The position numbers and the translations under genes are program-made. A stretch of 64,000 nucleotides of DNA from an uncultured Aliiroseovarius sp. GTDB taxonomy: Bacteria; Pseudomonadota; Alphaproteobacteria; Rhodobacterales; Rhodobacteraceae. Shown piece by piece: positions 51,226-62,388 of the stretch. The DNA is taken from contig NZ_CANLNB010000004.1 of assembly GCF_947492455.1 (NCBI RefSeq), positions 248,001-312,000 of the forward strand, written 5' to 3'. The notes below the pieces were generated by a model. The model worked only from the letters and a program-made list of their open reading frames with translations, was not told the DNA's origin and did not search any database. Each line of letters begins with the position of its first letter. Within the stretch, counting starts at the first letter, position 1.

Positions 51226-52506
51226 TTACCCCAGCAGCTCTTTCAACACCAAAGCCATCACACCCGCACTATCGATCATGTCCTGCACACCGACCCATTC
51301 GTCAGGCTGATGCGCCAAATCCAGAATGCCCGGCCCATAGGCGATGCAGTTCTTCAGCTTACCGATCCGGTCGATATGCTTCTGGTCATAGGTGCCCGGG
51401 CTGACCACATAAGACGGCTGCGCACCCAGCACCTTCTCGATCGCCGCCGCGGTCGAGGTCACCACAGGCGCGTCCTTGTCGGTCATCGTTGGGATGACCT
51501 CGTGCATGTCGCGGATTTCGTACTCGAAATTGGGACGTTCGGCGCGGATCGCTTCCAGCATCCGGCTGACCTCGGCCTTCACCTCGGTGATGTCCTCTTC
51601 CATCAGAAAACGTCGGTCGATCACGATGCGGCAGCGGTCGGCCACACAGGGCGCGGGTAGGCCGGTGAAGCCGGGGTCTTGCTCTGGCTCGCCACCGTGG
51701 ATCGAGTTGATGTTCAGCGTCGATTGCTTCGCACCTTCGGGCACAACGGGCATATCCGTGTGCTTGGTGGCCAGAAGCGGGAACAGGTGGCGTTCCATTT
51801 CCTCCAGCACTGCGCCCATGTGGCGAATGGCGCTGTCGCCAAGGAACGGCATGGAACCGTGGGCAATCCGCCCCTTGGTTTCGATTTCAGCCCACCAGAC
51901 CCCGCGATGGCCCAGACAGATGCGGTCTTTGTTTAGGGGTTCCGGGATGATCACATGCTGTACGCGGTCCGGGTTGAAATAGCCCTTCTCGGCCAGATAG
52001 GCGACACCGCCATAGCCGCCGGATTCCTCGTCGGCTGTGGCGCTGATTTCCACCGCACCCGCATGGTCGGGATAAAGTGCCACAAACGCCTCGGCTGCGA
52101 TGATCGACGCCGCCAGTCCGCCCTTCATATCGCATGCTCCGCGCCCATAGACCTTGCCGTCTTCCAATTCGCCGCCAAACGGGTCCTTGGTCCAGCCGTG
52201 ACCCACCTCGACCACATCATGGTGGCTGTTGAAATGCACACAGTCTCCCGGGGTTTCGCCCTCGTGGCGGCAAATCACGTTCCAGCGGGGATAGTCCACA
52301 CTGTCCCCCGGTGTGCCCTCGGCGCGGATAAGTTCGACCGTCCAGCCCTGCGCGCCCATGCGTTCGGCGATATAGGTGCAGATCGTGCGATATTCGCGCC
52401 CCGGAGGGTTCAGTGTCGGGATGCGGATCAGGTCTTGGGTCAGCCGGATCAGGTCATCCTGACGCCGCGCGATTTCGGTCAGAAGTGGGTCGATTTTGTC
52501 GGTCAT
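51226..52506 (-). CDS. M20-family ArgE/DapE-type peptidase or deacylase
   Basis: Protein of 426 residues with the metal ligands in NSHHDVV (about residue 92), GRGACDMKGG and ATADEESGG. It fits the ArgE/DapE family, zinc-dependent amidohydrolases acting on N-acylated amino acids. No arginine or lysine genes flank it, so its substrate is unknown. Its family name cannot be narrowed from the sequence. Confidence 0.9.
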   Translation of the reverse strand: MTDKIDPLLTEIARRQDDLIRLTQDLIRIPTLNPPGREYRTICTYIAERMGAQGWTVELIRAEGTPGDSVDYPRWNVICRHEGETPGDCVHFNSHHDVVEVGHGWTKDPFGGELEDGKVYGRGACDMKGGLAASIIAAEAFVALYPDHAGAVEISATADEESGGYGGVAYLAEKGYFNPDRVQHVIIPEPLNKDRICLGHRGVWWAEIETKGRIAHGSMPFLGDSAIRHMGAVLEEMERHLFPLLATKHTDMPVVPEGAKQSTLNINSIHGGEPEQDPGFTGLPAPCVADRCRIVIDRRFLMEEDITEVKAEVSRMLEAIRAERPNFEYEIRDMHEVIPTMTDKDAPVVTSTAAAIEKVLGAQPSYVVSPGTYDQKHIDRIGKLKNCIAYGPGILDLAHQPDEWVGVQDMIDSAGVMALVLKELLG

Positions 52507-52708
52507 GCCAAGACCCTAGGCCCCCCACGCGCGCATCTCAATGGCAGAGTTTCCCCCCGTCGAATTTCGCCGAAAACGCGAAGGAAAACGCTGTTGCGGG
52601 TCTTTAAATCGCGGTAAGCTCAACCTAAATGCTAATGTAACAGTGATTAACATCTTTCGCGCGGGCAACAAGACCTGACCGAAGATTTGGTGGATAGAAG
52701 GAGGGCAC

Positions 52709-53785
52709 ATGTCCAGTTTTGATAAGCAGATTCGTGAAAGCCAGACGCAAGTTGAAGAGGCGCAGGCCAAAATTTCCGAACTGACCACACGGATCGAAAC
52801 CGCGCGTGCGAAAGCGGCCAGCGGCGAAGATATCTCGATCGACATTGAAAACGCGACGCTGGACGACGTGCACGCCCACACCAAAGCGATGAATGCCAAC
52901 ATCGCCGAGCTGATCATGGGACTGGACGACGTGACCTCGGGCTTTTCAACCGATTTCGACCAGATGCGGTCGAAGACGGGCTGGGAAAGCTTTGTGGGCA
53001 TCTTCTCGAAAGCGAAATCGGAAAGCATGCGTCAGGAACGGATGCGCACGGCGTCCATCGACGATAAGTTGCAAGAGCTGATCGCGCAGTCCGACAGCAT
53101 CGTGAACCTTCTGGAAGGCCAACTGGCGATGCTGAACGAGCAGAAGGAAAAGGTGGGCGCGAACCTGTCCACCACGCTGGACGAGCGCGAAATGACCGTA
53201 GGCGAGCTGGAAAGCCTGCGCGCCGAGATTCTGGGTATGGACCCCAAGATCATCGAGCTTGAGAACAAGATCGCCAACGAACAGGACGCCGCCAAACGTA
53301 CGCAGCTTGAGACTGAACTGGCCGATCTAAACAGCCAGTACAACGAGATGGTGCAGGAAGAGCAAGTGAAGCTCGCCAAATCGCAGACGTTGGAGCGCTA
53401 TATCGAGAAGGGCAAAACATGGGTCGACAGCTTGCAAAACCAAGCCGCGACGCAGATGGTGTTGATCAACAAGCTGCAGACAGACACCAAGCAGCGCGTG
53501 GTGCTGTATGATGCGCTGACCAAGTCGTTGAAAACCGCGCAGCAGCAGGATGTGGCGCACCGGATCAACGAGATTGGCGTCGAAACCGACAAGGAAGCCC
53601 AAGCCGCGATGGCCGCGATTGGCACGGCGACGAACCAGCGCATGGCCGATATGATGGAAGCCCACGAAGACCAGATGGTCTTTGCCCGTGACGTGCTAGA
53701 GCAGAAAGCCAAAGCCGACGAACGCTTCGCCCGCCGCTTCGCCGAGATCGTCGAGAAGCACGACAAGAACCTGTATGGGGGCTAA
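52709..53785 (+). CDS. Coiled-coil protein, first gene of the AAA+ run
   Basis: Protein of 358 residues, soluble, with no signal peptide or membrane helix. Long heptad-like coiled coils lie at about 1-40 and 110-330, broken by a segment GWESFVGIFSK (about 91-101). It starts with AAGGAGG. A weak resemblance to TelA-type proteins, which are also mostly helical, comes to mind but I cannot support it. It is 108 nt upstream of the next gene, with a hairpin-rich gap. Probably a structural partner or adaptor of the ATPase encoded two genes downstream. Confidence 0.7.
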   Translation: MSSFDKQIRESQTQVEEAQAKISELTTRIETARAKAASGEDISIDIENATLDDVHAHTKAMNANIAELIMGLDDVTSGFSTDFDQMRSKTGWESFVGIFSKAKSESMRQERMRTASIDDKLQELIAQSDSIVNLLEGQLAMLNEQKEKVGANLSTTLDEREMTVGELESLRAEILGMDPKIIELENKIANEQDAAKRTQLETELADLNSQYNEMVQEEQVKLAKSQTLERYIEKGKTWVDSLQNQAATQMVLINKLQTDTKQRVVLYDALTKSLKTAQQQDVAHRINEIGVETDKEAQAAMAAIGTATNQRMADMMEAHEDQMVFARDVLEQKAKADERFARRFAEIVEKHDKNLYGG

Positions 53786-53789
53786 GGTC

Positions 53790-53843
53790 TTTCGCCCGGC
53801 GGACACGCCGGGCAGCGCCCGACCCTCCCCACGGGAGGGCGCT
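53790..53843. repeat. GC-rich tandem palindromes between the first two genes of the AAA+ run
   Basis: GCCCGGCG-GACA-CGCCGGGC (53794-53813) and CCCTCCC-CAC-GGGAGGG (53823-53839), with an overlapping GCGCCC/GGGCGC pairing. It resembles extragenic palindromic repeats of this order. It has no T tract, so it need not end transcription. Confidence 0.65.
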
Positions 53844-53893
53844 TCGCACCCACCCAGGGTCAGGCGCCACCCTTTTCGGTTTGATTGGAAGTA

Positions 53894-55063
53894 ATGACGA
53901 ACGACATCAAAACCTCCGAACGTGCCTCGGCCGGTTTCGCCCCGCGCGACCATGCCGAACTGACGGACACGCAGATCACGCGGCGGTACTTCTCGAAATT
54001 CGAGAAGATCACCGCGCATTTGGCCCGTGTGGCGGGGCAGATGGAGGTCGAGGGCAAGCTGAGCCGCGACGAGGTCGATGTGCTCGCGCGCTACCTGATC
54101 AAGCTGGGTCTCAGCTTCAAGGCGCTGGCGAACAAGTATCACATGTCCGAAACGGCCTATGGGTTGGGCGGGGCGACGCTAACCTTTGATCGCCGCGACA
54201 GCGGGTTTCCGATCCATGCGGAGCTGTTGCAGATGGCCTCGGACGCCGCGCAGGCGGGCACGCATCTGAAGGGCATGGCCTCGGTCGAGGACCTGAAAAG
54301 CCAGATGGTTAGCCAGATCGTCGGCGATCTGACGGTCCCGAAACGGCTGCAATACGCCCTGTCGCAGCGGCTTTATTACGAAGAGCTTCAGCGCGGTGAT
54401 CTGTTCTGGCCGCAGATGCATCCCGACGTGATCTGGCGCCACAACAAGGGCGAGGGCCGCGATCCCCGCCGCGTCTATCTGGCCCATTGGGCGGTCTATG
54501 ATAGCGAGGTGAACCTGCCCACCATCTATCTGATGGAGCTGGAAGACACCGGCCGTACCGCGCTGCCCAAAGACGAACGCCGTTGGCCTCAGGTTCAGTC
54601 GCATCTGATGGCGCAGTCGATGGCGGGGCTTCAGCTGGTGACCATCGCCACCGGGTTCGACAAGGATTTCGACGACCTGCACCCTAAACGCCTGCGCCGC
54701 TTCCATGTCGGCCCGATGTACAGCCACACCTTCACCCGTCAGACCGGCCCTCTGCGCGAGGTGTTGGAGCAGGCGAAAAGCCCGCCCGGTGAAGACTGGG
54801 CGCTGGCCTGGACCGTAGAGGAGCTGAAAAGCGCATCGGTGAAGCAAGAGAAATCCGGTTGGTTCGGCAAGGTCGAACGTCAGGTCTTCGCGCTCGACCC
54901 GTTTGCGGGCGCGGGCTCGACCATCGGTGCGACCAGCATGGAACGCGCCATCATCATGCCCGAGCGCCCCTTTCAGGTGCTGGCCGAAAAGAACCCCGCC
55001 GGGTTCCACGACGTACGTAAATTTGTTGTCAGCCCGGGTGGCCGGGTTCTGTCCTACCGTTGA
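53894..55063 (+). CDS. Unknown soluble protein of the AAA+ run
   Basis: Protein of 389 residues with no signal peptide or membrane helix and no motif I recognise. Landmarks are LKALANKYHMSETAYGLGGATLTF (about 70-95), QRLYYEELQRGDLFWP, RWPQVQSHLMAQSM and DPFAGAGSTIGATSMERAI. The last has a glycine-rich DPFAGAGS like the SAM motif of some methyltransferases, but the rest does not fit one and I make no claim. The start at 53894 was chosen over a TTG three codons upstream. Fourteen bases before the ATPase gene. Confidence 0.7.
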   Translation: MTNDIKTSERASAGFAPRDHAELTDTQITRRYFSKFEKITAHLARVAGQMEVEGKLSRDEVDVLARYLIKLGLSFKALANKYHMSETAYGLGGATLTFDRRDSGFPIHAELLQMASDAAQAGTHLKGMASVEDLKSQMVSQIVGDLTVPKRLQYALSQRLYYEELQRGDLFWPQMHPDVIWRHNKGEGRDPRRVYLAHWAVYDSEVNLPTIYLMELEDTGRTALPKDERRWPQVQSHLMAQSMAGLQLVTIATGFDKDFDDLHPKRLRRFHVGPMYSHTFTRQTGPLREVLEQAKSPPGEDWALAWTVEELKSASVKQEKSGWFGKVERQVFALDPFAGAGSTIGATSMERAIIMPERPFQVLAEKNPAGFHDVRKFVVSPGGRVLSYR

Positions 55064-55077
55064 TTTAGGAGTATTCG

Positions 55078-57009
55078 ATGTCTTTACCCGCTGACCTGAT
55101 GGAGCTTCGCGAAGAAGAAATCCGCGCGCATTACGTGGCCGCTGCGGGGCATCTGGATGGGTTTGATCACACGCCCCGGATCGCCAAGCCGAAGGACGCG
55201 CCCAAGGCGGAACGCAGCCCGGGTATCGGGCGCGCGCGGCGGTTCCGGTCGACCACGCCGGGGCTGGTGACACGCTCCACCGCGCGGCCCGAAGGAGTAC
55301 ATCTGGTCGAACGGATCGAAAGCTCGGACGGGGATGATCTGCTGGTCTCTCCCATGCAGGCGACCGTCCTACACACCCTGCGCCGCGCCATCGCGATTGC
55401 GCTGGCGGTGGGTGAGGGGTTCGCGGAGCAGACTGAACTCGCCGCTCTGCGTCGCGCAAACCTTGAAGGGCGTCTGGGCGCGGACAAATCCACTGCCTTC
55501 TCGGAACTCCTGACCGCCGAAGCGCTGATCGTCCTGTACGTCTTCGGCAACGCGACCTCGTACCTGCTGGCCGACCACGCCAGCGAAACCCCGATCGAGG
55601 TCGGCGCGGTCGAGGAAATCCTGACCGACAACGCGCCCCTTGCCCTGAACGGGGCGCTGTGGGAGCTGGATCAGGAACTGGCCACCTTCGTGACCTCGGA
55701 AGACAAGCTGGTCCCAACCGTTCTGGCCTTCGTCGAACAGTTGATGGAGAAGGTTGCCCTGCGCGCCCAAACCGCTAGCCATCTTGGTCCGTTCACCTCG
55801 GCCAACTACCGTGTCGAGGCCGATGATCTGACCATTTCCGGCTTCACGCCGTCGCGCGCGCATCGCGGGTCAAAGATCACGATGACCTTCAAGAAACCGA
55901 ACGAGGTCGTGGGTAACCACATCGCCAAGTACCAAGCGATGAAGCTGGCCAAGATGCTGATGGCCTATGACTTCGACCGCAAGCTGAACCCGTTCGCGGA
56001 ACTTGGCGGCTTCATCTTCACCTTCATGGGCGACGGCAAGCCGGGCACCGGGAAAACCACGCTGATCCAGATGATGGCCGGGCTGATCAATGACTACTGC
56101 GCGGTGGCGGGCTATCCGTTCCGCTATCAGAACTTCGGCATCGACAATATCGACAGCTATCAGGGCAAGTCGGGCCAGAACGCGAAGGCCTTCATCAACA
56201 ATGTGCTCGACCCCAATGTGATCGGCTTTGGCACCGTGGATGACATTGACCAGATCGCGGGCAAGCGCGGGGATCGCCAATCCAGTGCGGGCCAGCAAGA
56301 GGTCACGGCGGTCCTGATGGAAAGCTTCGCGGGCGCCAACACCGTGGTGCGCGGCAATTGCACCTTCGGCATGTTCTCGAATTACCCCGAGAATGTGGAC
56401 GACGCCCTGCGCCAACGCGCCGGCGCGCGCTTCTTGGTGGACGGTCCCCAAACGCGCGAGGACTATATCGACATCCTGCATCTGCTCATGGGTAAGAACC
56501 ACGACATCCCGCTGGGCAAGCATGATCTGTACGGTGCGCAGGAAATCAAATCCGCCGTCGCGCGCAGTTTCGAGGCGCATAACAAGCCGCAGGAATCGGG
56601 GCTGATGAACGTGTTCGACCGCGTGCATGCCAAGATCGGAGAACTGGATGACATCGCCAAAATCGGCACCTATCTGAAGGGCATTCAGGAGGCCGACCCG
56701 CGTTTCACGGGCCGCTCGATCAAGAACATCACCGACGCGGTGAAAGTCCGCGCGATGGACTTTGAACTGCCCGACGAATGGATGGAAAACCCCGAGCTGT
56801 TCTTGGTCAAAGACTATGACACCAAGAAAGACATGATTTCTGAGCTGCGCGTGCCCATCACCACCGACATGGTGATCCAAGAGGTTAACCGCTACGCCGA
56901 TTCAGAATTCCGCTATGCCGACAAATCCGACGAGGTCGCCATCGAGGCGATGGTCCGCGACTTCGGCCGTCAGGAAGAGGCGAAGAAGCGGTATTTGGAG
57001 GGGAAGTGA
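55078..57009 (+). CDS. AAA+ ATPase, core of the uncharacterised run
   Basis: Protein of 643 residues. The first ~300 residues form a helical non-AAA region. The AAA+ core has Walker A GDGKPGTGKTT (319-328), Walker B GFGTVDDID (384-391), a sensor-1-like Asn in FSNYPENVD (about 435) and ALRQRAGARF (444-452) as a possible arginine-finger segment. It lacks a membrane helix and a protease domain, so it likely remodels or moves a partner. A GGAGT precedes the ATG. The interloper gene starts on the base after its stop. Confidence 0.85.
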   Translation: MSLPADLMELREEEIRAHYVAAAGHLDGFDHTPRIAKPKDAPKAERSPGIGRARRFRSTTPGLVTRSTARPEGVHLVERIESSDGDDLLVSPMQATVLHTLRRAIAIALAVGEGFAEQTELAALRRANLEGRLGADKSTAFSELLTAEALIVLYVFGNATSYLLADHASETPIEVGAVEEILTDNAPLALNGALWELDQELATFVTSEDKLVPTVLAFVEQLMEKVALRAQTASHLGPFTSANYRVEADDLTISGFTPSRAHRGSKITMTFKKPNEVVGNHIAKYQAMKLAKMLMAYDFDRKLNPFAELGGFIFTFMGDGKPGTGKTTLIQMMAGLINDYCAVAGYPFRYQNFGIDNIDSYQGKSGQNAKAFINNVLDPNVIGFGTVDDIDQIAGKRGDRQSSAGQQEVTAVLMESFAGANTVVRGNCTFGMFSNYPENVDDALRQRAGARFLVDGPQTREDYIDILHLLMGKNHDIPLGKHDLYGAQEIKSAVARSFEAHNKPQESGLMNVFDRVHAKIGELDDIAKIGTYLKGIQEADPRFTGRSIKNITDAVKVRAMDFELPDEWMENPELFLVKDYDTKKDMISELRVPITTDMVIQEVNRYADSEFRYADKSDEVAIEAMVRDFGRQEEAKKRYLEGK

Positions 57010-57648
57010 ATGTGGACTCTTCCTGAGACCCCTGATGTGATCGTCGCGTTCGGGACGCTTCTTGCTGGCTCAGCAGCAGTATGGGGCGCATATTCGGCGC
57101 ACCGTGGGGTCGATGCGTGGAAGAAAGAGAAAAGATGGCAAAGTGATCACGAGCTAGCTCGTAAAATCCTGATGCTCATCTTCAGGCATCGGGACGCGCT
57201 TGCAACAGTTAGGCACCCAGCAATTTGGAGTGCGGAAACAAAAGAAGCGATGGCAGGGAAAGAAGCGTTTTCAGACTACAGCGAGAAACGCTTTTCGGAA
57301 ACCGCCGCCGTCTACGAGAGGCGTTGGGACAAAGTAACTGAGGTCCGTGCGGAGCTGTACCCAGCTTTGTTGGAAGCGGATGTGATTTGGGGGTCTACAC
57401 TCAAGGATCTCGTCGCTCCTGTTTTCGAGCTTGAGTTTGAGCTGAAGATTGTTTTGCAGACTTACCTTAGGGCGATTAATCCAAACGGTTCCGAAGCGAC
57501 TAGGGAAGTCGCACAACAGTCTCTCAGAGAGAAACGCGACATTATGTACGATACGCTAAGCGAAGATGATGAATTCAGAAGGGACTACGAGAAAGGCCAA
57601 CAGCCGTTGGAAATACTCCTACGAGCAAAAATGGGAGGCGCAACATGA
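57010..57648 (+). CDS. Membrane-anchored hypothetical protein of foreign character
   Basis: Protein of 212 residues with one N-terminal membrane helix (about 10-28) and a charged helical cytoplasmic part (WKKEKRWQSDHELARKIL to DYEKGQQPLEIL). Base composition is visibly AT-richer than its neighbours: 57541-57600 holds 25 GC of 60 against 34 of 60 at 57721-57780. It abuts the ATPase stop and overlaps the next start by four bases (ATGA), so it is fully integrated in the transcript. I recognise no family; it could be a late insertion of a small accessory gene. Confidence 0.7.
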   Translation: MWTLPETPDVIVAFGTLLAGSAAVWGAYSAHRGVDAWKKEKRWQSDHELARKILMLIFRHRDALATVRHPAIWSAETKEAMAGKEAFSDYSEKRFSETAAVYERRWDKVTEVRAELYPALLEADVIWGSTLKDLVAPVFELEFELKIVLQTYLRAINPNGSEATREVAQQSLREKRDIMYDTLSEDDEFRRDYEKGQQPLEILLRAKMGGAT

Positions 57649-59006
57649 AACGCCTCATCCAACGCGGCCTCATGTTTGGCAATCTGATCCGGGTCGACAG
57701 CCCGGCGCTGATCGAGCGGTATAACCGTGCGCTCAAGGGGCTGGCGGGCAAACAGACGAAGCTGAAAGAGTTCCACATCGATATTTCCGGCTTCTCGCCC
57801 GAGATCGGGGAAGAGTTCAAAGACCCGCTCTACCTCAACCCCAATGGCTGCAACCGGCAGTTTATCATTCTGACGGTGGACCAAAAGAAGGCGCCGCTGT
57901 TGGGTGCCATGTTCTCGACCTCGCGCGGCATCCTTCGCCAGTTCATTGCGGATAACGAGGCGAAGCTGTTCGCGCTAACTGCCCATGACGCGGTGGCGGG
58001 CGAGTTGATGAACTCGGTCTATGACATTTCGGATCCCGCGCGGCTGTTCGACATTCGCAAGATCCTGATCGAGGCCGACACGACCCAAAGCCACGTCAAA
58101 AACGCCCGCGAACTGGCCGAGAAGATCGACCATTTCCAGACCGCCGAAAACGCCTGGTATGACGACGATCTGATCGCCGAGATGATTGAACTGGCCCGCG
58201 AAACCGGGGACGTGACGCGCGTTCCTGTCGATCTGGGCGTGCAAGAATTTGAGCAGGGCAATTTCTGGACCGTGCATTTTGGCGGGCTCTACATCTTCCG
58301 CGATGTGGAAAGCCCTTGCGTGGTGGTCTCGGGCGACAAGGACCGGATGGAGCGCTTCCCGCGTCTGCCCGTCATCGACACGACCGAACCCAACCGCATC
58401 GCCAGCTTCCTGCGCAAGAACGATCTAGTCGAGCCTTTGGTGAAAGAACGCGGCGCGTCGGGCGCACGGATCCTGCGCCAGAAGATGGAGTTCATTTTGG
58501 TGGACGCCGCGACCTCGGCCGGGATGGAGCTGGGCGACATGTCCTCGCGCACTTTGCGGCACGTGGCGCAGCGGATGGGGCGTAACCTGCCGCAGGCTTT
58601 CCACGGACTGGCCGCGCTGGTGCGCTGGGCTGAAGCGGGTGGGCAGTGGCCCCGGATCGACAGCCGTCACCCGGCCTATTTCTACACTCTGCGCGCGCGG
58701 CCTGATCACCCGGACCGCGACCTTATAAACCAATTGCTGTCCGAGCTTGCCCCGATGGACTTCCGCCAACTGTTCATCTGCCACAAGGAACTCTTCTATG
58801 CTTCCTACGCCACATGGCCGGACGAAAAGCGCGAGTTTGTGGCAGAATTCCTGCATCGTGACTATATGGCTAATAAGGCCGGTGCCCGTGATAAGCTGTT
58901 TGGCGGGCGCAAAGACGCGCTGAAAGTGCCGACGACAACGCGCAAACGCACCCGCGAGCAAGTGATTGAAATGGTTGGCCCTTGGGGTTCGGTGAAAGGA
59001 AGATAG
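57645..59006 (+). CDS. Unknown soluble protein of the AAA+ run (DUF6638-like)
   Basis: Protein of 453 residues with no signal peptide or membrane helix. Landmarks are KEFHIDISGFSPEIGEEF (about 42-59), QFIILTVDQKKAPLLGAMFST and RNLPQAFHGLAALVRWAEAGGQWP. It has the length and feel of DUF6638, which I name only from memory and with low confidence. The strict operon position suggests a partner of the ATPase. Confidence 0.72.
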   Translation: MKRLIQRGLMFGNLIRVDSPALIERYNRALKGLAGKQTKLKEFHIDISGFSPEIGEEFKDPLYLNPNGCNRQFIILTVDQKKAPLLGAMFSTSRGILRQFIADNEAKLFALTAHDAVAGELMNSVYDISDPARLFDIRKILIEADTTQSHVKNARELAEKIDHFQTAENAWYDDDLIAEMIELARETGDVTRVPVDLGVQEFEQGNFWTVHFGGLYIFRDVESPCVVVSGDKDRMERFPRLPVIDTTEPNRIASFLRKNDLVEPLVKERGASGARILRQKMEFILVDAATSAGMELGDMSSRTLRHVAQRMGRNLPQAFHGLAALVRWAEAGGQWPRIDSRHPAYFYTLRARPDHPDRDLINQLLSELAPMDFRQLFICHKELFYASYATWPDEKREFVAEFLHRDYMANKAGARDKLFGGRKDALKVPTTTRKRTREQVIEMVGPWGSVKGR

Positions 59007-59008
59007 GG

Positions 59009-59275
59009 ATGGGATTTCTACGACTGATCATTTTCGGCTTTATCGGGCTGAGCATCATCTATGTGCTCGTCAGCCTGTATTCCCGTTCGGTCCGTCTGGA
59101 GAAGCTCGAAGAGCAATGGGCCGAAGAACATCCCAACGGCAATGAAAGCGACCGCGAAGCGTGGTTGCGCGAGGGGATGGAGGACTATCAGAAAAGCTTC
59201 CGCCCGAAGCTGATTTTGCTGGTTTATGTGGTGCCCGCGCTGCTGGTGCTGCTGTCGATTATACTTATTAACTGA
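59009..59275 (+). CDS. Small two-helix membrane protein
   Basis: Protein of 88 residues: helix 1 (about residues 3-22, LRLIIFGFIGLSIIYVLVSLY), a charged soluble loop with EEQWAEEHPNGNESDREAW, and helix 2 (about 68-86, LILLVYVVPALLVLLSIILI). AGGAAGATAGGG before the ATG at 59009 sets the start. Both ends in the membrane and a negative loop suggest a bitopic hairpin, perhaps a membrane tether of the ATPase system. Related small proteins are sometimes mislabelled as efflux pumps; it is too small for that. Confidence 0.75.
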   Translation: MGFLRLIIFGFIGLSIIYVLVSLYSRSVRLEKLEEQWAEEHPNGNESDREAWLREGMEDYQKSFRPKLILLVYVVPALLVLLSIILIN

Positions 59276-59283
59276 GGTTCAAT

Positions 59284-59964
59284 ATGCGCCGTTTCCGTAT
59301 CATCATCCGCAGCCTAATCGCGCTGATCCTGTTTGGCGTGCTACATTACACGCTGCCGCAACATGACGTGGTGCGTGTTGTGAACACCTATCAGGAACGT
59401 CAGGATCTGGACGACTGGACCCGGATTTTCTGGTCGAAACCGGATGACCAATCCGCGGGCCTGATCAACCGTGATGTGCAGTTTGTGCAGACGGTGAAAA
59501 AGAAGACCTACCTGCTGGGCTTCATCCGCACGGATGCGGAAGAGGTGATGGTCTATCGCAACGAAGACACCGGCTGGTCTTGGCCGTTCTATTTCAAGTT
59601 CGATACCGCCAGCTTGCAGACCGAGGTCGACGATTTGCGCTCGACCGCCGAGGAGCCCAAATGGGCGGTGATCACGCATTATGGTTGGCGGAACGAGCTG
59701 ATCTCGGTCTTCCCCAACGCGGTCGGCATTCGCCCCGTGGCTGGGCCGGACGTGACGATCATCCCGTGGTTTAACATCGCGTTCTTCCTGTTCCTCGCTG
59801 TGGCTGTCGGCTTTGCGCGCGCGCTGTGGGTGCAGTTCCGCCAACGCTCGATCGACCCCGCGCTTGAGGACGCAAGCGAGGCGTGGGACGCCGTAGATGC
59901 CCGCGCGGATGAGGCCAAGGGCCGCGTATCCCGTTGGCTGGGGACGTGGCGCAAGAAGAAGTAA
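59284..59964 (+). CDS. DUF1523 family membrane protein
   Basis: Protein of 226 residues with an N-terminal helix (about 6-24, IIIRSLIALILFGVLHYTL), a periplasmic domain containing VMVYRNEDTGWSWPFYFKFDTASLQ, and a second helix (about 158-180) before a charged tail. The YRNEDTG-WPFYFKFD core is typical of DUF1523. It closes the run and is followed by a strong terminator. No function is known for the family. Confidence 0.82.
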   Translation: MRRFRIIIRSLIALILFGVLHYTLPQHDVVRVVNTYQERQDLDDWTRIFWSKPDDQSAGLINRDVQFVQTVKKKTYLLGFIRTDAEEVMVYRNEDTGWSWPFYFKFDTASLQTEVDDLRSTAEEPKWAVITHYGWRNELISVFPNAVGIRPVAGPDVTIIPWFNIAFFLFLAVAVGFARALWVQFRQRSIDPALEDASEAWDAVDARADEAKGRVSRWLGTWRKKK

Positions 59965-59981
59965 GTGCTTCCGCTGGAATG

Positions 59982-60021
59982 AAAAAAGCGCCGCGCGAGG
60001 GACCCTCACGCGGCGCTTTTT
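59982..60021. terminator. Bidirectional terminator between DUF1523 and aldehyde dehydrogenase genes
   Basis: Stem AAAAAGCGCCGCG / CGCGGCGCTTTTT with a loop of about 12 bases. Strong in both directions. Confidence 0.93.
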
Positions 60022-60036
60022 GATTTATCGGCTGGG

Positions 60037-62388
60037 TTACTCGCCGTAGGGCACCCAGACGGTTTTGACCTCGGTCGCGTGGCTTAGGAACTCGCGGCCT
60101 TCACCTGCGGCCCCCATCCAGTCACGCGCGTGGGCGTTGTTGACCCAGCTGCGTTTCAGATTGCCCGCACTTTCCAGCTCGACCGTGGCCGAGATGTCGG
60201 CGCCCGAATGCGACCAGACCGCATCCACGCCCAAGTGACCGGCCAAGGGTGCGGCCAGCGTGGCGTGATCTCCGGTGACGATGTTCACCACGCCGCCGGG
60301 GACGTCCGAGGTTTCCAGCACTTGATAGAAGTCGGTAGCCGCCAGCGGGAAGGGTTGTGACGCTGCCAGCACCACGCGGTTGCCCATCGCAATCGCTGGT
60401 GCCATCAAGGACACCAGTCCAAGCAGCGGCGCCTCGTCCGGGCAGAACCCACCGATCACGCCGACCGGTTCGTTCATCGCCAGCGCCACGCCGCGCATCG
60501 GCACGGGTTTGGCGGCGCCGTCGAACTTGTCGGCCCATGCGGCATAGGTGAACAGACGCGAGATGGCCGCGTCGACCTCTTTTGCGCCGCTGCGTCCGCC
60601 CGTCATGGCGTCGATCCGGGCGGCGAACTCACCTGCACGGGCCGAGAGGTTTTCGCCGATGTAATAGAGGATCTGCGCGCGGGCATGGCCGGTGGTCTTG
60701 GCCCAGCCGCTTGCTGCCGTCGCGGCCTCGACCGCGTTGCGGATGTCCTTGCGGTTGGCGATGCCTACATGGCCCAGAAGGGCGCCGGATTTCGACCAGA
60801 TTGCTTGGCTATAGCCTCCGTCCGGGCGTGCCTGCTTGCCGCCGATATAGAATTTGGCGGTGCGGTCCAGCGCGTCGACTTTGGCGTCTTTCGGCGCGGA
60901 TACGGGGGCAATCGGCTTCAACGCAACCGATTTCCCGCGCGGCTTGGTATAGGCCTGCAGCCCTTCCCATCCGCCTTCGCGCCCAAAGCCGCTTTCACGC
61001 ACGCCTCCAAATCCGGCAGCGGCGTCAAACATGTTGGTGCCGTTTACCCAGACCACGCCAGCGACCAGTTTCGGGGCGATGTCCAACGTCAGGTTCACGT
61101 TCTCGGACCAGACAGACGCCGCCAGTCCGTAACGAGTGTTGTTGGCAATTTCGACCGCTTCAACCGGGGTGCGGAAGGTGGTCGCGGCCAGTACGGGGCC
61201 GAAGATCTCTTCCTGCATCAATGTGGATGCCGAGGACAGCCCGGTGATCAGCGTGGGCGGATAGAAGCAACCCTGATCGGGAAGCGGGCAGGGGGCTTGG
61301 TAAAGCTCGCCCTCGCTGGCACCGGCATTCACCATATCGGCGATCCGCTGGTGCTGGATCGGGTCGACCACGGCGCCCACGTCGATGGATTTGTCCAACG
61401 GATCACCAATGCGCAGCTTGCCCATGCGGGCCTTCAGCTTGGCATAGAACCGATCCGCGATGCCTTCCTGAACGATCAGGCGCGAGCCTGCACAGCAGAC
61501 TTGGCCCTGATTGAACCAGATCGCATCGACCAGCCCTTCGACCGCTGAATCAAGATCCGCGTCGTCGAAGACGATGTAGGGCGACTTGCCGCCCAGTTCC
61601 AACGTCAGGGACTTGCCCGATCCGGCGGTCGCGCGGCGGATTTGGCGACCTACATTGGTCGAACCGGTGAAGGCGATCTTGTCGATGCCCTCATGCGTCA
61701 CGATGGCTTCGCCCACGCGCCCGTCACCGGTCACGATGTTCACGACACCTTTGGGCAGACCGGCCTCGTCACAAATCTGCGCGAACAGGAGTGCGGTCAG
61801 CGAGGTGTATTCCGCAGGCTTCAGCACCACCGTGTTCCCCATCGCAATCGCGGGCGCGATTTTCCACGCCAGCATCAGAAGTGGGAAGTTCCATGGGATG
61901 ATCTGGCCGCAGACGCCCAGTGCCTCGCGATCCGGCAGTTCGGCGTCCTGAAGCTGCGCCATGCCAGCGTGGTAATAGAAATGCCGCGCGACCAGCGGAA
62001 TGTCGATGTCGCGGCTTTCGCGGATCGGCTTGCCATTGTCCATGCTCTCGAGCACAGCAAAGAGGCGCGCGTGCTTCTGCACCAGACGTGCCAGCGCATA
62101 GAGGTATTTTGCGCGGGCATGGCCGGGCAGCGCGGCCCAGCTTTTCTGTGCCTTGCGCGCGGCAATCACCGCCACGTCTACATCATCTGCGCTGGCCTGT
62201 GTCACCTGCGCCAGAACCTCGCCCGTCGCCGGGTTGCGGCTGTCGAACAACTCGCCCGGCTTGGTCATCGCGCCATTGATATAGAGGCCAAACGCGCCGT
62301 CGCGCGCCGCGATCCACTCCAGCGCTTCGCCCGCGCTTTCCGGGGCCGGGCCATAATCCATGCTGTCGAATTTTTCTTTCACGGTCAT
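60037..62388 (-). CDS. Aldehyde dehydrogenase with a second, catalytically degenerate domain
   Basis: Protein of 783 residues. Domain 1 (about 30-500) is a full ALDH with Glu264 in LTLELGGKSP, catalytic Cys in GQVCCAGSR (298-299) and the cofactor sites IIPWNFP and GSTNVG. Domain 2 (about 515-783) repeats the cofactor-binding half (GVIGGFCPDEAP, GVVNIVTGD) but stops soon after the general-base region (VELESAGN) and lacks a catalytic cysteine. It probably oxidises an aldehyde, perhaps acetaldehyde from deoC, the next gene upstream. Double-domain forms occur in related bacteria; the second half's job is unclear. Confidence 0.92.
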   Translation of the reverse strand: MTVKEKFDSMDYGPAPESAGEALEWIAARDGAFGLYINGAMTKPGELFDSRNPATGEVLAQVTQASADDVDVAVIAARKAQKSWAALPGHARAKYLYALARLVQKHARLFAVLESMDNGKPIRESRDIDIPLVARHFYYHAGMAQLQDAELPDREALGVCGQIIPWNFPLLMLAWKIAPAIAMGNTVVLKPAEYTSLTALLFAQICDEAGLPKGVVNIVTGDGRVGEAIVTHEGIDKIAFTGSTNVGRQIRRATAGSGKSLTLELGGKSPYIVFDDADLDSAVEGLVDAIWFNQGQVCCAGSRLIVQEGIADRFYAKLKARMGKLRIGDPLDKSIDVGAVVDPIQHQRIADMVNAGASEGELYQAPCPLPDQGCFYPPTLITGLSSASTLMQEEIFGPVLAATTFRTPVEAVEIANNTRYGLAASVWSENVNLTLDIAPKLVAGVVWVNGTNMFDAAAGFGGVRESGFGREGGWEGLQAYTKPRGKSVALKPIAPVSAPKDAKVDALDRTAKFYIGGKQARPDGGYSQAIWSKSGALLGHVGIANRKDIRNAVEAATAASGWAKTTGHARAQILYYIGENLSARAGEFAARIDAMTGGRSGAKEVDAAISRLFTYAAWADKFDGAAKPVPMRGVALAMNEPVGVIGGFCPDEAPLLGLVSLMAPAIAMGNRVVLAASQPFPLAATDFYQVLETSDVPGGVVNIVTGDHATLAAPLAGHLGVDAVWSHSGADISATVELESAGNLKRSWVNNAHARDWMGAAGEGREFLSHATEVKTVWVPYGE

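Follow-up and report, generated by a model that had tools for sequence, protein, structure and literature searches.

Closest Described Systems

The effector gene prrC lies inside a conserved operon. Its product, the anticodon nuclease PrrC, is encoded with, and silenced by, a type I restriction–modification enzyme (PMC2610378). The MoxR–vWA ternary conflict systems and their relatives employ a fixed, NTPase-centered set of proteins together with many effector domains (PMC7159879). According to the accessible portions of these two papers, systems that pair a core with a variable effector are already known as a kind, as is the silencing of an effector by a linked complex. The subject of this report is a run of seven genes, termed g1 to g7, that includes a gene for an AAA+ ATPase and occupies positions 52709–59964 of the window, i.e., the whole 64,000-nucleotide (nt) stretch of DNA from an uncultured Aliiroseovarius sp. 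that was analyzed. The run is an operon-like unit in which a conserved chassis, or core, harbors an exchangeable cargo.

The run resembles the MoxR–vWA systems in that a fixed NTPase-centered gene set is associated with many effector-type domains. However, the cores described in the accessible part of PMC7159879 are of the MoxR–vWA or GTPase type, whereas the present one comprises a classical AAA ATPase, a coiled-coil protein, g2, and a DUF6638 protein. In addition, the candidate effector is confined here to one bounded gene slot, and no such gene set is named in the available part of that paper. As in the PrrC case, a candidate effector gene lies inside a conserved operon; in contrast to that case, as far as the accessible part of PMC2610378 describes it, the core is devoid of restriction–modification genes and is accompanied by many unrelated candidate effectors rather than one. 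Single cargo genes match the defense proteins PD-Lambda-3, type IV Mrr-like, AbiJ, and putAbiC, but these families are found in the slot and not in the core. No description of an operon with this core and slot was found in the open-licence literature, as judged by titles and the beginnings of abstracts.

Conserved Core

The sequence-only reading of the window had treated all seven genes as a unit. Six of them, encoding the coiled-coil protein (g1), g2, the AAA+ ATPase (g3), the DUF6638 protein (g5), g6, and the DUF1523 protein (g7), stay together in relatives and form one conserved module. The remaining gene, g4, is exchangeable and lies outside the module, so the run is not one fixed unit.

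In a phylum-wide draw of 299 genomes, the AAA+ and DUF6638 proteins are each present in 20, and these are the identical 20. The coiled-coil protein is found in the same 20 genomes, and five further genomes show weaker matches to it (E 2e-34 to 1e-3). Class-wide draws yield the AAA+ protein in 5 of 289 genomes and the DUF6638 protein in 4 of 240. Within the family, where one genome per genus was drawn, the distribution of the AAA+ protein is patchy (63/149), and each of the 20 other genus members searched has it, the fragmented genome G011 as two pieces.

Gene order is retained to a similar extent by two methods. By tblastn, the genes for g1, g2, AAA+, DUF6638, and DUF1523 occur in order in 24 of 25 loci; only L076 deviates, a short stretch that lacks the upstream genes and stems from the same genome as L078. 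The small g6 is undetected by tblastn in L055, L076, and L078. By profile search, all six core genes are in order in 100 of 113 long loci, a set that includes some genomes twice and was mostly fetched because the AAA+ gene is present. Among the remaining long loci, five have the first four core genes only (L115 and L154 end there), two lack g6, two lack the first gene, and four lack the AAA+ gene.

The order of the first four core genes is conserved across Rhodobacteraceae, Sinorhizobium, Halomonas, and Vibrio. Only these four are found in Vibrio, while in Sinorhizobium they are followed by a gene for DUF2333, a predicted membrane protein, in place of g6 and DUF1523. The AAA+ proteins of the closest copies among named genomes (Aliiroseovarius) are 98–83% identical to that of the window. 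Two Halomonas records encode an AAA+ protein that is 73% identical to it, which suggests transfer between classes. The genes are not scattered in relatives, and no match of the ATPase or of the unnamed proteins to a characterized family was found, an outcome that leaves standing the earlier proposal of an undescribed system.

The Sinorhizobium meliloti tag SMc02733 presumably belongs to the Sinorhizobium copy of the operon, as judged by its neighborhood, and serves as a lead only. A fragment inside SMc02733 appears in a ChvI-binding screen, according to the accessible part of the source, and a literature search for the neighboring tags found none. In the accessible literature, DUF2333 adjoins a type VI secretion system locus. 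Three rhizobial loci (L188, L189, and L190) have a diverged coiled-coil gene only and no AAA+ gene. In L189, this gene lies directly before a DUF2333 gene, and the locus resembles a degenerate version of the system.

Variable Slot

The gene g4 is the cargo of a hypervariable slot between the AAA+ and DUF6638 genes and is not a member of the module. The genus was compared using the window and 19 other genomes, leaving out G011, whose operon is divided between contig ends. Orthologues of each of the six core genes, of the M20 peptidase gene upstream, and of the aldehyde dehydrogenase (ALDH) gene downstream are present in 20/20 genomes; g4 has no match at the same syntenic site in the 19 other genomes. 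The length of the slot varies from 377 to 1413 nt in the genus. Cargo is common to a few congeners, i.e., G001 and G019 (98% identity), G007 and G020 (one open reading frame (ORF), 90%), and G008 and G014 (a short ORF, 62%), and one cargo family recurs at 29–60% identity in G003, G006, G008, G010, and G013.

Across the family, 126 unique loci were retained after removal of duplicate and partial ones. The slot measures at most 60 nt in 4 loci, 61–250 nt in 8, and more than 250 nt in 114. In these 114 loci, the longest slot ORF (at least 80 amino acids (aa)) is codirectional with the core in 100, on the opposite strand in 12, and absent in 2; 11 of the 12 opposite-strand ORFs read like shadow ORFs. 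The first codirectional slot ORF abuts or overlaps the AAA+ stop codon (−30 to +15 nt) in 78 of 106 loci, and in 60 of the 106 the last one runs exactly 4 nt into the DUF6638 gene. Start/stop coupling on both sides suggests that the joint expression of cargo and core matters.

The 127 cargo ORFs of 105 loci form 60 clusters, including 43 single ones; as the 60 still contain some shadow ORFs, the true number of families is lower. A cargo cluster is common to 7 of 70 pairs of loci with AAA+ proteins at least 95% identical, 18 of 90 pairs at 90–95%, 48 of 409 at 80–90%, 327 of 4505 at 70–80%, and 13 of 386 below 70%. Cargo sharing hardly depends on the closeness of the hosts, and turnover in the slot is faster than species divergence. 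One cargo protein with a weak match to histidine-kinase-type ATPases is 86.6% identical between two genera in which the AAA+ proteins are 78.7% identical, which is evidence for transfer. The median G+C content is 0.527 for the slot and 0.601 for the AAA+ gene, the slot being lower in 96 of 114 loci. No common motif was found by eye at the slot edges within the genus, where several aligned rows are out of register since the AAA+ end varies in length; the identity bins of these rows were disregarded.

Two slots have unusual contents. That of L136 spans 2.4 kb, with a longest ORF of 412 aa that runs on the opposite strand and is not shadow-like. In Sinorhizobium meliloti (L247, 10106–11851), the slot holds a gene with an endonuclease domain and an IS4-like element.

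Cargo Proteins

The cargo set used for family scans comprises 65 of 76 reference proteins, 11 being excluded (one duplicate and ten likely codirectional shadow ORFs). As a control, 65 of 76 drawn flanking genes, matched for size, were scanned. Pfam matches in the cargo set (E up to 0.001) include DUF559 (2), Mrr_N (2), Mrr_cat (1), AbiJ_NTD4 (2), and DUF2971 (2), as well as Hypoth_Ymh, putAbiC, PIN_10, DUF433, DUF3825, HATPase_c_2, and a few others. With PADLOC, cargo proteins match PD-Lambda-3_B (5.7e-77), mREase_IV (9.2e-33), and the candidate models PDC-S02 (1.6e-31) and PDC-S31 (1.2e-23). The control set gives nine PADLOC families with a best E of 4.6e-9. The best E lies below 1e-10 for 10 of 23 PADLOC families in the cargo and for 0 of 9 in the control.

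Relatives of two cargo proteins were located among the 149 family genomes. Those of g4 occur in five other genomes, the three strongest within the slot and the two weakest elsewhere. Those of the L155 cargo protein occur in eight; the slot holds the four best, and the other four, which are the weakest, lie elsewhere. By a crude hydropathy count, in which a few duplicate or partial loci are included, 93 of 130 slot ORFs contain membrane-like stretches.

A Proposed Conflict System and Its Alternatives

The type of cargo and its turnover resemble, we infer, an arms race, and the variability of the slot points to a role in conflict or defense no less than to one in envelope remodeling. On the basis of co-occurrence and turnover, the AAA+ chassis is read here, with a probability of roughly 0.45, as a conflict system, probably anti-phage, that carries exchangeable effectors of the defense type. 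A more specific proposal, put forward tentatively and at somewhat less than even odds, is that this modular immune chassis controls any effector placed in the one precisely bounded slot, such that related roseobacters share the machine and not the weapon. An AAA+ oligomer would act near the inner membrane via g6 and the DUF1523 protein, with the coiled-coil protein and g2 as putative adaptor or sensor parts. The chassis would hold the cargo effector inactive or, alternatively, switch it on upon infection, and the effector (a nuclease, a HEPN- or Abi-type protein, a toxin, or a small membrane protein) could then harm the invader or halt the cell. The tight coupling of the genes would fix the ratio of effector to chassis, and the turnover of the cargo is proposed to arise because effectors are swapped under phage pressure. 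If cargo and chassis do work together, the run would equip an abundant marine group with an immune platform for plug-in effectors, the slot of each new genome would provide a new effector candidate, and DUF6638 and DUF1523 would obtain their first functional context.

Several observations weigh against a defense role. The core proteins have no strong match to any PADLOC model of an anti-phage system; their matches are weak, i.e., g1 to LmuB (3.7e-6, coiled-coil) and the AAA+ protein to TRIP13 (7e-4) and IetA (3.8e-3). Unlike many defense systems, the core occupies a single site throughout the 20 genus members compared. Nor is cargo obligatory, since Halomonas, Vibrio, and a few other hosts keep the core around an empty slot. 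The cargo is mostly unnamed and much of it is membrane-like, and when ten soluble cargo proteins were scanned singly with PADLOC (at most 0.001), six matched and four did not. Flanking genes are also an imperfect control, given that accessory genes generally carry defense families.

Nearly as likely as defense, because cargo-free cores exist in Halomonas, Vibrio, and a few other hosts and no close likeness to defense proteins is seen, is a hotspot explanation. In this view, the core is a resident AAA+ machine for housekeeping or stress, and its operon is simply permissive; accessory genes, including defense genes, would settle in the slot because their expression there is harmless, and would be functionally unlinked to the core. 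The persistence of the core with empty slots, its fixation at one site in the genus, the lack of a domain common to the cargo, and the insertion sequence element within a Sinorhizobium slot are all as expected of a hotspot, as is the variation of other junctions (108–739 nt between g1 and g2, with small membrane-like ORFs in many loci, and ~1.3 kb after the DUF1523 gene in 3/20 genomes). A hotspot explains less readily the exact start/stop coupling on both sides, the strong strand bias, the high proportion of loci with a filled slot (114 of 126), and the finding that two cargo families (g4 and L155) have their best relatives in the slot. Even as a mere hotspot, an intra-operon site that swaps genes and keeps start/stop coupling on both sides calls for explanation.

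A remodeler of the envelope or of membrane proteins, in line with the sequence-only reading, in which the AAA+ and coiled-coil proteins would handle membrane proteins and the variable membrane-like cargo would represent substrates or adaptors, is rather improbable by itself, but could possibly combine with the defense or the hotspot explanation. Its link to the membrane is drawn from hydrophobic stretches in g6, DUF1523, and much of the cargo, including the 93 of 130 slot ORFs noted above, and the position of the predicted membrane protein DUF2333 after DUF6638 in Sinorhizobium is consistent with it. However, g1 is unrelated to PspA and TelA profiles, many cargo proteins are soluble and of the nuclease, HEPN, or Abi type, and such rapid replacement is not expected of substrates. 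It is very improbable that the miscalling of ORFs in G+C-rich DNA accounts for the variability of the slot. Shadow-like ORFs do occur (11 of the 12 on the opposite strand and about ten codirectional ones), but the length of the slot itself varies in the genus, homologues in further genera or strong matches to protein families exist for many cargo ORFs, and these ORFs fit exactly between two stop/start overlaps.

The AAA+ ATPase

The g3 protein exceeds the cutoff (21.2) of Pfam AAA (PF00004) with an E of 3.5e-11 and 44.1 bits. In agreement with the sequence-only reading, which described an ATPase lacking a protease or helicase domain, neither of these nor any other partner domain is recognized in it by Pfam. 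The segment G318–T328, N435, R447, and R451 are invariant in 14 aligned rows, and we take them to be Walker A, the sensor-1 Asn, and the arginines of the second region of homology (R447/R451), respectively. Walker A and the sensor-1 Asn are thus retained, whereas the Walker-B-like motif reads GT-V/I-DD in 14/14 rows, with Asp where Glu is usual.

The best match by sequence among solved structures is an i-AAA ATPase domain. With the classical AAA ATPases (i-AAA, Vps4, fidgetin, katanin, and AFG2), g3 shares the AAA domain, Walker A, the sensor-1 Asn, and the conserved arginines, but it differs from them in the lack of a recognized protease or partner domain, in a Walker B of DD instead of DE, and in an N-terminal region that is unnamed. 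A match to a clamp-loader family (5.8e-6) is among its weak PADLOC and PHROGs matches. The AAA+ protein has no match in phage records and 10 matches in plasmid records.

Other Core Proteins

Previously taken as an unknown protein, g5 is in fact covered by an existing Pfam family, DUF6638 (PF20343; E 8.7e-209, 694 bits, cutoff 27), of which no mention was found in the open-licence literature. The g7 protein matches DUF1523 (PF07509; E 2e-66, 223 bits, cutoff 23). In the accessible parts of the DUF1523 literature, one mycobacteriophage protein is assigned at E 0.77 and marked as not cytotoxic, and a 112-aa mycobacteriophage protein with the same tag is listed as a growth inhibitor (+++); kinship with g7 is not established for either. 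No Pfam family is found above the cutoff for g1, g2, g4, or g6, and no protein of the run exceeds any NCBIfam cutoff.

The coiled-coil protein g1 was considered as a relative of PspA/IM30 or TelA and rejected as both, with hhalign probabilities of 3.5% and 4.2% against four-sequence alignments of PspA and TelA, respectively, and no Pfam match to the former; a comparison of g1 with Protein Data Bank sequences likewise shows no PspA-like kinship. The genome from which the window stems yielded no PspA; it has a separate TelA gene on the same contig at G000:C4:401324-402319, ~93 kb from the operon.

The structure of g2 is predicted with a pTM (predicted template modeling score) of 0.83 and consists of a helical N-terminal part and a beta-rich domain. 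Its middle domain (residues 186–352) shows a weak, repeated likeness to T-fold enzymes, which we take to account for 39 of the 50 VIA-align rows listed, with Z at most 5.1; Foldseek gives no match with E < 0.001. The DUF6638 protein is predicted with a pTM of 0.77. Fold searches with the predicted structures of g2 and DUF6638 did not yield a convincing relative, which is not evidence for a new fold. Profile similarity between the two proteins is absent, and their origin by duplication was rejected. On the basis of hydrophobic stretches, g6 and the DUF1523 protein look like membrane proteins.

Layout of the Run

The ORF listing of the window contains seven ORFs on one strand in the run, and the claim of a one-direction run closed by a terminator is borne out. 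The hairpin after g7 has a fold energy of −30.4 kcal/mol (z −5.3) and is equaled by 0 of 200 shuffles. As read from the sequence, ATG 53894 is a better start for g2 than TTG 53885, and ATG 59009 a better one for g6 than TTG 58982. The resulting gaps are 108 nt (g1–g2), 14 nt (g2–AAA+), 0 nt (AAA+–g4), 2 nt (DUF6638–g6), and 8 nt (g6–DUF1523), and g4 and the DUF6638 gene overlap by the 4 nt ATGA. A sigma-70 scan of 51500–61000 found no promoter-like site of that type.

Table 1. Features of the AAA+ run and its terminator, in window coordinates
Feature	Position	Strand	Role	Description
g1	52709..53785	+	core	coiled-coil protein, 358 aa
g2	53894..55063	+	core	soluble protein without family, 389 aa
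g3	55078..57009	+	core	classical AAA+ ATPase, 643 aa; N-terminal region unnamed
g4	57010..57648	+	slot cargo	212 aa; hydrophobic stretch near the N-terminus
g5	57645..59006	+	core	DUF6638 protein, 453 aa
g6	59009..59275	+	with the core in Rhodobacteraceae	small protein, 88 aa; both ends hydrophobic
g7	59284..59964	+		DUF1523 protein, 226 aa; hydrophobic stretches near both ends
Hairpin	59983-60021	+	terminator closing the run	fold energy compared with shuffles

Other Variable Junctions

The junctions besides the slot are steadier in the genus, although not all are constant; that between g2 and the AAA+ gene, for example, ranges from 14 to 229 nt. The g1–g2 junction constitutes a second, smaller variable position (L219, L221, L224, L228, L121, L168, and others). 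Its ORFs are 100–180 aa long and membrane-like and often start 2–12 nt past g1; in the window, this junction (53786–53893, 108 nt) is empty. Short lipoprotein-like ORFs are occasionally found between g2 and the AAA+ gene, in L111, L121, and L161. The junction between the DUF1523 and ALDH genes, which is expanded in three of the 20 genus genomes, measures 52–113 nt in the 17 others.

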